Source of the DNA: an uncultured Roseburia sp.
GTDB taxonomy: Bacteria; Bacillota; Clostridia; Lachnospirales; Lachnospiraceae
NCBI GenBank assembly: GCA_947088675.1
Contig: CAMUHN010000022.1
Span: 1 to 43,178, forward strand
DNA: 43,178 nucleotides
Direction of reading: 5' to 3'
A program made the position numbers and the translations under genes. Shown in pieces: positions 22,923 through 24,946 of the stretch (within the stretch, counting starts at the first letter, position 1; each line of letters starts with the position of its first letter). The notes beneath the pieces are model-generated. The model was given only the letters and a program-made list of their open reading frames with translations, was not told the DNA's origin and did not search any database.

Positions 22923-23969
22923 ATGCAGACAAAAATAATAAAAGTCGGTACCGGGCACACAGATCTTACCGAGGCGGCCGATGTGATCCGGGGCGGAGGG
23001 CTGGTAGCATTTCCGACAGAAACCGTATACGGTCTTGGGGCGGACGCATGTAATCCGCAGGCAGCAAAAAAAATCTACACTGCAAAGGGAAGGCCGTCGG
23101 ATAATCCGCTGATCGTACATATTGCACAATGGAATGATCTGTTTGCGGTTGCGGGAGAAGTGCCCGCGGAAGCAAAGCGGCTGGCAGATGCGTTCTGGCC
23201 GGGTCCTCTGACGATGGTCATGAAAAAAAATGAGAGAATTCCCCGTGAGACAACAGGGGGGCTTGACACAGTTGCCGTTCGTATGCCAAACCATCCGGCT
23301 GCGCTTGCGCTGATTTGTCAGAGCGGATGTCCGATTGCCGCGCCAAGCGCCAATACGTCAGGCCGGCCAAGTCCGACCGAGGCGGCGCATGTCGCGGCGG
23401 ATCTTGCCGGGAAAATTCCTGTTATACTGGATGGAGGACCGGTGGGGATTGGGATTGAATCTACGATTATTGATCTGACGGAAGAGACGCCGGTGATCCT
23501 TCGTCCCGGTTATATTACGAAAGAAATGCTTTCGCAGACGCTTTTAAGGGAAGTTGCCATAGACAGTGCCGTGATTGCGCCGGAATCCGGAAAGATACCG
23601 AAAGCGCCCGGGATGAAATACAGACATTATGCGCCGCGGGCAGAGATGATTGTCGTATCCGGAGAGATGCAGAAAGTAGTTGCGAAGATAAATGAGCTGA
23701 CAGATAAGAATCATGCGAACGGCAGGAAAACAGGCGTGATTGCCACCGATGAGACAAAACAGTTTTACCGGGCGGATCAGATCGAAAGTATAGGGGCAAG
23801 AGAGGATGAGGATGCGATTGCAAGGCATCTGTACCGGATTTTGCGCGATTTTGATACGGGGGACGTACAGATTATCTATTCGGAGTCTTTTGCGACGCCG
23901 CGCATTGGACAGGCGATTATGAACAGGCTCTTAAAGGCCGCGGGAAATCATGAGATCTTTGTCAGTTGA
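22923..23969 (+). CDS. ywlC: L-threonylcarbamoyladenylate synthase, Sua5 type
   Basis: 348 residues, the length of Bacillus YwlC. The YrdC fold is clear: GGGLVAFPTETVYGLGADA, KIYTAKGRPSDNPLIVHI, FWPGPLTMVMKK, VAVRMPNHPAALALI and APSANTSGRPSPT, followed by the GIESTIIDL strand. The Sua5-specific C-terminal domain begins after APGMKYRHYAPRAE, the conserved linker. It uses threonine, bicarbonate and ATP to make the intermediate for t6A37 in ANN-decoding tRNAs. The start at 22923 has AAAGGAAAG about 10 nt upstream; in-frame ATGs at 22866 and 22872 have no such site. Followed by the ywlE-like gene, as in Bacillus. Confidence 0.95.
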   Translation: MQTKIIKVGTGHTDLTEAADVIRGGGLVAFPTETVYGLGADACNPQAAKKIYTAKGRPSDNPLIVHIAQWNDLFAVAGEVPAEAKRLADAFWPGPLTMVMKKNERIPRETTGGLDTVAVRMPNHPAALALICQSGCPIAAPSANTSGRPSPTEAAHVAADLAGKIPVILDGGPVGIGIESTIIDLTEETPVILRPGYITKEMLSQTLLREVAIDSAVIAPESGKIPKAPGMKYRHYAPRAEMIVVSGEMQKVVAKINELTDKNHANGRKTGVIATDETKQFYRADQIESIGAREDEDAIARHLYRILRDFDTGDVQIIYSESFATPRIGQAIMNRLLKAAGNHEIFVS

Positions 23970-24005: not shown

Positions 24006-24464
24006 ATGAGAGATTATAACAGAATCATATTTGTCGCGCGTACCGGTACGTGCAGGTCGCCGATGGCGGCAGGTATTTTATCGGAGATGGCGTTAAAACA
24101 TCCTGTGGAGGTAGTAAGCCGCGGGCTTGTCGTACTGTTTCCGGAACCGTTGAACCAGAAAGCGGAGGCAGTGATGATCAGCAATGGTATCAATATGGAA
24201 GGGTATACTTCCACACAGCTTGCCGAGGAGGATTTTACACCGGATACGCTTGTGTTTGTGATGGAGCGGAGCCAGTTGGAAAAAATAATTGAAAAATATG
24301 AAAATGTGATACCCGAAAATATTTTTGTGTTAAATGAATTTGTCGGGGACGAGCTTGAAATTGTGGATCCATATGGCGGCACACTGCAGGCATACGGGCT
24401 TTGCTATGAGGTGATTCGAAAATCAATACAAAAACTGGTTGAATTGTTGGAGGAGGAATTATGA
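24006..24464 (+). CDS. Low-molecular-weight phosphatase homologue lacking the catalytic cysteine
   Basis: 152 residues. The fold follows the LMW-PTP/YwlE family: N-terminal strand and P-loop (IIFVARTGTCRSPMAAGIL), then EVVSRGL, FTPDTLVFVM, and IVDPYGGTLQAY with the general-acid aspartate at D121. The family P-loop is C-x5-R; here Arg17 and the second Cys16 are present, but position 11, the nucleophile, is alanine (codon GCG). The standard phosphocysteine chemistry therefore should not work. In Bacillus this position, after ywlC, is the arginine phosphatase YwlE. The start at 24006 (GGGGG 5 nt upstream) matches family N-termini; 23994 is an alternative. The stop codon overlaps the start of the next gene (ATGA), so the two are translationally coupled. 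Inferred: a phospho-binding pseudo-enzyme or a divergent enzyme. Confidence 0.88.
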   Translation: MRDYNRIIFVARTGTCRSPMAAGILSEMALKHPVEVVSRGLVVLFPEPLNQKAEAVMISNGINMEGYTSTQLAEEDFTPDTLVFVMERSQLEKIIEKYENVIPENIFVLNEFVGDELEIVDPYGGTLQAYGLCYEVIRKSIQKLVELLEEEL

Positions 24465-24946
24465 GCGGGAAAAGGGAAGATTATATCAGTTGGGACGAAT
24501 ATTTTATGGGCGTGGCGCTTTTGTCAGGTATGCGCTCTAAGGATCCGAATACGCAGGTGGGCGCATGTATTGTCAGCAGCGACCATAAAATCCTTTCCAT
24601 GGGCTACAACGGCCTGCCGCTTGGCTGTTCGGATGATGAATTTCCATGGGCCAGAGAGGGTGATCCGCTGGAGAGCAAATATTTTTATACCACACACAGT
24701 GAACTGAATGCAATTTTAAATTACCGCGGCGGCAGTCTGGACGGCGCAACAATCTATGTTACGCTTTTTCCCTGCAACGAGTGCGCCAAGGCAATTATTC
24801 AGTCAGGAATCAGACGAATCGTCTATCGGAGCGATAAATACGACGAGGAGCCGAATGTGATAGCGTCCAAACGGATGCTGCGCGCAGCAGGCGTCGTGAT
24901 GCAGGAGTATGAAGCGACGGGACGCAAAATTGCAATTGACCTCTAA
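24461..24946 (+). CDS. comEB: Deoxycytidylate (dCMP) deaminase, ComEB type
   Basis: 161 residues. Family landmarks: WDEYFMGVALLSGMRSKDPN, QVGACIVSSDHKILSMGYNG, then the zinc site with THSELNAI (His ligand and catalytic Glu) and LFPCNECAKAIIQSGI (two Cys ligands). Serine replaces the usual alanine between the zinc His and Glu. It deaminates dCMP to dUMP for thymidylate synthesis in the cytoplasm. GGAGGAGG lies 5 nt upstream, and the start overlaps the stop codon of the phosphatase homologue. The insertion before THSE (FPWAREGDPLESKYFYT) is typical of the clostridial branch. Last gene before the ATP synthase operon. Confidence 0.94.
   Translation: MSGKREDYISWDEYFMGVALLSGMRSKDPNTQVGACIVSSDHKILSMGYNGLPLGCSDDEFPWAREGDPLESKYFYTTHSELNAILNYRGGSLDGATIYVTLFPCNECAKAIIQSGIRRIVYRSDKYDEEPNVIASKRMLRAAGVVMQEYEATGRKIAIDL

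Follow-up and report, generated by a model that had tools for sequence, protein, structure and literature searches.

Introduction

Pseudophosphatases are known from the classical PTP class, such as PTPRU and HD-PTP, which are eukaryotic proteins of another fold class, and Bacillus subtilis harbors both McsB and CtsR. With reference to the available text of PMC8001253, the catalytic map of the arginine phosphatase YwlE consists of Cys7, Arg13 and Asp118, together with a Thr at the fifth position of the P-loop, which selects phosphoarginine over phosphotyrosine. On the kinase side, Cys157 of Staphylococcus aureus McsB is called catalytically essential in the available part of PMC12467219. Within the open PMC literature, no paper was found on YwlE in connection with pseudophosphatases or on Sua5 in connection with YwlE, and nothing relevant by title or abstract was found on McsB as a pseudokinase or on arginine phosphorylation in Lachnospiraceae; subscription papers lie mostly outside this scope, and absence in print is not established by it.

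In this study, a YwlE-like open reading frame was investigated in a window of 43,178 nucleotides (the whole stretch of DNA that was analysed) from an uncultured Roseburia sp., for which the original prediction had reported an alanine in place of the catalytic cysteine. The features of the locus are collected in Table 1.

Table 1. Coordinates of the YwlE-like reading frame, its key residues and its neighbours in the window.
Feature	Position	Strand	Basis
YwlE-like LMW-PTP-fold protein without the catalytic Cys (pseudophosphatase), 152 aa	24006..24464	+	ORF intact, Pfam, AF2, Foldseek
Codon 11, GCG (Ala), at the catalytic Cys position (YwlE Cys7)	24036..24038	+	Sequence; YwlE mapping as in the available text of PMC8001253
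P-loop Arg17 (YwlE Arg13), invariant in 59/59 genus orthologues	24054..24056	+	Alignment
RGLVVLFPEPLN, residues 39-50, loop following strand 2, conserved in and specific to Lachnospiraceae	24120..24155	+	AF2 and conservation
Asp121 of the DPYGG motif (general acid position); in the genus D 45/59, N 14/59	24366..24368	+	Alignment
sua5 (threonylcarbamoyl-AMP synthase), upstream neighbour of the YwlE-like ORF	22923..23969	+	
comEB (dCMP/cytidine deaminase family, PF00383), 4-base overlap with the YwlE-like stop	24461..24946	+	

Results

The window protein and its locus

The P-loop of the window protein reads V-A-R-T-G-T-C-R, with Cys16, Arg17 and the pair Asp121-Pro122 present and the reading frame intact, in agreement with the original prediction, and by the mapping in the available text of PMC8001253 the equivalents of the YwlE residues are Ala11, Arg17, Asp121 and Thr15. 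The protein matched PF01451 (LMWPc) with 64.4 bits over residues 7-144 (cut-off 23.2), and no second LMWPc match was found in the window's genome, whose assembly is 87.6% complete and divided into 122 contigs. Structure prediction, which had been proposed as a check, gave a confident AF2 model (mean pLDDT 92.2) with a YwlE-like fold; Foldseek returned 92 PDB matches at E<=0.001 with LMW-PTPs at the top ranks, the closest being the YwlE arginine phosphatase 4pic (TM 0.83). The profile and the fold of the LMW-PTP family (PF01451) were thus both found, while its catalytic C-x5-R is absent owing to Ala11.

The gene order is sua5, the YwlE-like ORF, the dCMP/cytidine-deaminase gene and then the atp (ATP synthase) genes, so that the predicted position between sua5 upstream and the atp genes downstream was borne out. 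The coupling to comEB that had also been proposed holds in the window, where the ATGA at 24461-24464 joins the stop of the YwlE-like ORF to the comEB start, but not as a general rule: ComEB was immediately downstream in only 7/59 genus and 19/119 family loci, some of which are short, and an operon link with comEB was rejected as a general feature.

Position 11 and the P-loop across the genus

We examined 62 genomes of Roseburia/Agathobacter (hereafter the genus), from which 59 orthologues were obtained, one from each genome with a match; all 30 high-quality genomes carry the gene. The catalytic Cys was absent in 54 of the 59 orthologues, with residue 11 being A in 31, G in 10, S in 6, C in 5, T in 4, E in 2 and D in 1, which places this position 19th in variability among the 150 positions of the genus alignment. 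Comparatively, R17, G40, F45, E47, P48, N50, P122, Y123 and G124 were invariant. On a 60-row Sua5 tree (56 genus rows yielding enough Sua5 and four others), at least 19 changes were counted at position 11, including at least three switches between Cys and non-Cys. Within the P-loop, Gly14 was kept in 56/59 and Thr15 in 49/59, position 16 was not conserved (C/S/A/T/G/R), and residue 18, which is Ser in the window, was Glu in 31/59. The P-loop has thus retained Arg17 throughout, whereas the position of the nucleophile is free to drift.

A strain mutation or an assembly error has a negligible probability; the original prediction had weighed a strain mutation or sequencing error in case nearly every relative should carry an intact Cys, which is not so in the genus. 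The survey of relatives showed the non-Cys state to be a trait of the lineage: the sister genome G051 encodes a protein 95% identical to that of the window and likewise with Ala, and the Cys is also absent in other independent genomes, among them strains recorded as Roseburia inulinivorans, R. faecis, R. porci, R. hominis and Lachnobacterium bovis. Sequencing error and strain mutation were accordingly rejected on the count of the genus orthologues.

Seven of the 62 genus genomes encode a further LMW-PTP, whose loop reads CHGNICRSPMA and whose identity to the window protein is low, at about 23-27%.

Distribution and loss of catalytic residues in Lachnospiraceae

For the family, 250 genomes of Lachnospiraceae were sampled at close to one per genus; 180 matched the genus profile, 119 of them strongly (E 1.1e-22 or better), and all 119 strong matches were read. 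Of the 61 genomes with weaker matches only, five were read; the five, as well as one weaker second copy, were canonical CHG[NS]ICRS proteins, and the weak family matches read scored at most 50 bits, as against at least 54 for the 21 class YwlEs. The canonical YwlE loop CxGNTxR was kept in only 14 of the 119 orthologues. Cys was lost in 73, Arg in 33 and Asp in 60, and all three were retained in 22, including the 14 with the canonical loop. As an outgroup, 21 Sua5-adjacent YwlEs were taken from among the 30 best class matches; all 21 harbor the canonical loop and come from genomes with McsB. No strong orthologue was detected in 131 of the 250 family genomes, so that many genera can do without its role.

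A single family copy, L216 in genome G240, lacks the P-loop segment, is possibly broken, and was counted as non-canonical; its nearest relatives (L180, L182 and L184) are Sua5 fusions, and it may itself be a broken fusion.

These distributions bear on whether the protein is still an enzyme, either through another nucleophile, as the original prediction had suggested, or through a Cys-bearing minority in which activity is kept, which we regard as very unlikely. Ser occupies the nucleophile position in 42 of the 105 non-canonical family members, and the structure 4kk4 of YwlE C7S is titled as bearing a phosphorylated active-site serine; Cys, Arg and Asp also occur together in 5/59 genus members, and these five, like the eight non-canonical family members that keep all three residues, might be active, judging from their sequences. 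However, 41/59 genus members carry Ala or Gly, neither of which can serve as a nucleophile, no Cys or Ser of the P-loop is conserved, Asp121 is replaced by Asn in 14/59, and the five Cys-bearing genus members fall into two separate groups on the Sua5 tree. The idea of a different residue was consequently rejected on conservation, given the variable position 16 and the repeated changes at position 11.

A conserved loop at residues 39-50

Among the 105 non-canonical family members, the highest conservation was observed for F45 and P48 (100%), G124 (99%), A21 and G40 (98%), and E47 and Y130 (97%), followed at 90% or more by F9, V43, K52, L82, N50, L44 and R39. Conservation was similar in members that have lost the Cys or the Arg (R39 86% and 85%, N50 95% and 85%, respectively), and F45 and P48 were kept in all 73 Cys-less and all 33 Arg-less members. 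Several of these residues lie in the loop RGLVVLFPEPxN, which in the AF2 model sits after strand 2 (35-40) and before the helix 51-59; in LMW-PTPs the equivalent loop borders the active site. R or K at position 39 was found in 59/59 genus, 14/14 canonical and 104/105 non-canonical family members and in 1/21 class YwlEs, and F45 together with P48 in 59/59, 14/14, 105/105 and 0/21, respectively. Since the canonical Lachnospiraceae forms also carry the loop, the simplest order is that the new loop came first and the loss of catalysis later. On these patterns of conservation, the chances are about even that a non-catalytic role acts through residues 39-50.

Selection on the gene

Pairwise dN/dS was computed by the Nei-Gojobori method with our own script for genus pairs with dS <1.5. 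The median was 0.139 over 92 pairs, and 0.136 (maximum 0.289) over the 78 pairs in which both members are non-Cys; the window and its sister gave 0.087. The gene being under selection rather than decaying, as had been claimed, is upheld by these values. A catalytic residue is missing and the protein is under selection, and the window protein is very probably a pseudophosphatase maintained by selection. That the gene is instead decaying under relaxed constraint and on its way out is a slim possibility, to which the many family genomes without a strong orthologue, the loss of catalytic residues in many combinations and the truncated appearance of L216 would correspond; against it stand the dN/dS of about 0.14, the lack of any internal stop in the 59 genus matches, the presence of the gene in every high-quality genus genome, and the retention of F45 and P48 in every Cys-less and Arg-less member.

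McsB and its coupling to the YwlE loop

McsB (PF00217) was found in none of the 62 genus genomes, including the 30 of high quality, while the same model detected it in 60/250 family and 103/147 class genomes. These family and class positives serve as the control, in place of 14 control genomes that gave no McsB match. The Bacillus subtilis control genome showed neither McsB nor CtsR, and the stretch may be missing there.

All 60 family McsBs were aligned. The first Glu of the NEED box was kept in 17, of which 13 have the Cys of SCPTN and four have Ser; in the other 43 this Glu is absent and the Cys is gone in every case, being replaced by F (23), Y (14), S (4), W (1) or A (1). The commonest replaced box in these Glu-less McsBs is NGDD (17/43), and the second Glu is kept in 5/43. 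Both the first Glu and the Cys were present in 10/10 class McsBs. By its place after the GY loop, we infer that the family Cys corresponds to the S. aureus Cys157 of the available part of PMC12467219. In 42/43 Glu-less and 17/17 Glu-bearing loci, mcsB is followed on its own strand by a ClpC-like ORF, and an McsA-like ORF is located upstream in 42/43 and 16/17, respectively. The Glu-less and Cys-less McsBs (loci L296-L344, such as L299, L300 and L306) are therefore likely, on sequence grounds, to be pseudokinases kept in an mcsA-mcsB-clpC operon.

CtsR was tried as a marker of the McsB system and rejected, as it was not detected even where a family McsB is present. PF05848 (CtsR) gave no match above cut-off in the 250 family genomes and one sub-threshold match, and the 60 family McsB loci L285-L344 (10 with 1.5 kb flanks, the others with 0.7 kb or less) yielded no CtsR-like ORF, while one was present in 10/10 class McsB loci. 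Undetected at all family McsB loci, CtsR is uninformative on McsB in Lachnospiraceae.

Across the 250 family genomes, those with an McsB bearing the first NEED Glu had a canonical loop in 13, a non-canonical one in three and no strong orthologue in one; the corresponding numbers were 0, 8 and 35 for McsB without this Glu, and 1, 94 and 95 for genomes with no McsB. The exceptions are G067, with a canonical loop and no McsB, and G095, G115 and G206, with a Glu-bearing McsB and a non-canonical YwlE. The association gave a Fisher p of 1.9e-17 over all genomes and 9.8e-14 among those with an orthologue, in both cases on related rows uncorrected for kinship. An earlier quick Sua5 tree of 135 rows yielded three supported pairs. 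On a careful tree of 80 of these rows, each trait changes at least nine times, and seven supported independent pairs were obtained, with on average 5.3 concordant, none opposed and 1.7 without difference; the tree-aware test was borderline (median p 0.06, range 0.03-0.13). The loss of the YwlE catalytic loop is likely coupled to the decay of McsB, and we take this coupling to be real, though only moderately tested.

The same survey bears on the suggestion of the original prediction that the protein binds phospho-arginine without hydrolysing it. Read more broadly, the dead pocket would still bind a ligand, be it phosphoarginine, a different phosphorylated residue or some small anion, and would shield or sense it, which we consider unlikely. 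The invariant Arg17, together with Gly14 and Thr15, the residue that selects phosphoarginine in YwlE, speaks for such a reader, and so does ClpC, whose phosphoarginine pocket we take to consist of two Glu and one Thr: the putative pocket residues are kept in 20/20 genus loci (the best-scoring 20 of 62 genomes). However, the first of these Glu does not discriminate, being present in 10/10 class, 17/17 Glu-bearing and 42/42 Glu-less McsB loci; Glu18, where it occurs in the genus, might occupy the pocket by pairing with Arg17; and Arg is lost in 33 of the 105 non-canonical family members. With no McsB found in the genus there is no known source of phosphoarginine, which disfavours a phospho-arginine binder there; the suggestion thus agrees with the retained Arg17 and Thr15 and is at odds with the missing kinase and the family-wide losses of Arg.

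A third Clp ATPase-like match was observed in the window's genome (G000:C18:23514-24134) and in the sister (G051:C3:42036-42971), with respective identities of 48% and 41% to the ClpC fragment; in each of the other 60 genomes of the genus, one or two such matches were present.

Linkage and fusion to Sua5

Sua5 was immediately upstream in 55/59 genus, 112/119 family and 21/30 best class loci, and shares one ORF with the YwlE-like domain in 2/59 genus and 16/119 family loci. The domains Sua5_yciO_yrdC, Sua5_C and LMWPc were present in 4/4 fusions scanned, and the linker was short in 17/18. In the alignment of the 18 fusions, the invariant phosphatase columns, assigned by us to window residues with a constant offset of 350, were F9, A21, G40, F45, E47, P48, N50, G124 and Y130; the P-loop Arg was not among them.

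In other clostridial families, 5/5 long LMWPc ORFs examined were also Sua5-YwlE fusions (L398, L399, L401, L402 and L404, from two families). The Lachnospiraceae fusions resemble these in having Sua5 followed by the LMW-PTP domain in one ORF, but the five keep an intact CTGNTCRS, whereas the canonical CxGNTxR occurs in 0/16 family and 0/2 genus fusions. Fusion to Sua5 was hence rejected as a hallmark of dead forms; the intact fusions indicate that the link to Sua5 arose before the loss of catalysis or extends more widely than it, and this link is no proof of a role of the dead form. The AF2 model of one fusion had a pTM of 0.52, at which no reliable interdomain contact or interface can be read. 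Gene order and gene fusion point weakly to Sua5 as a possible, rather doubtful, partner of the pseudophosphatase.

Discussion

Our data favour, with somewhat better than even odds, the reading that the window protein is a YwlE orthologue turned pseudophosphatase and retained for a non-catalytic role. Arginine phosphorylation would have been lost or disabled, either by deletion of McsB or by its reduction to a form without the essential Cys and the first NEED Glu. This loss would have freed the catalytic loop from constraint, after which the protein would have been retained for a catalysis-independent binding role, which we propose to lie in the loop RGLVVLFPEPxN next to the former active site. 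Key residues of this loop occur in both active-looking and dead Lachnospiraceae forms and not in the outgroup YwlEs, suggesting that this second role was probably in place before catalysis was lost. The likeliest partner would be Sua5, the threonylcarbamoyl-AMP synthase for tRNA t6A. A bolder proposal, which we consider improbable, is that Lachnospiraceae dismantled protein arginine phosphorylation and kept both enzymes as pseudoenzymes, with McsB as a pseudokinase between mcsA and clpC and YwlE as a regulatory or structural subunit of Sua5 through RGLVVLFPEPxN.

These genes match phosphatase family models, yet the known mechanism is closed to the majority of the Lachnospiraceae members read, and selection appears to have maintained a protein that no longer performs its chemistry, in gut commensals that are in culture. 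The shared fate of the kinase as writer and the phosphatase as eraser offers a natural experiment on the non-catalytic roles of YwlE and McsB, and leads to the prediction that arginine is still phosphorylated in Lachnospiraceae with an intact McsB and a canonical YwlE, and not in the others. The original prediction could see neither the decay of McsB alongside that of YwlE nor the loop specific to the family, nor the fusions with Sua5.

In comparison with YwlE and PtpB (PF01451), the window protein shares the fold, the adjacency to sua5, the P-loop Arg, the phosphoarginine-selecting Thr and the DP motif. It differs from them in lacking the nucleophilic Cys, in the altered Gly, Asn and Ser positions of the loop within the genus, in the change of SAG to SRG together with VVLFPEPxN, and in a genome in which no McsB was found. 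As far as available accounts of the classical-PTP-class pseudophosphatases such as PTPRU and HD-PTP go, it is like them in retaining a phosphatase fold after catalytic competence was lost; unlike them, it is a bacterial LMW-PTP of a form that spans a bacterial family, and its loss of catalysis is associated with the loss of a kinase.
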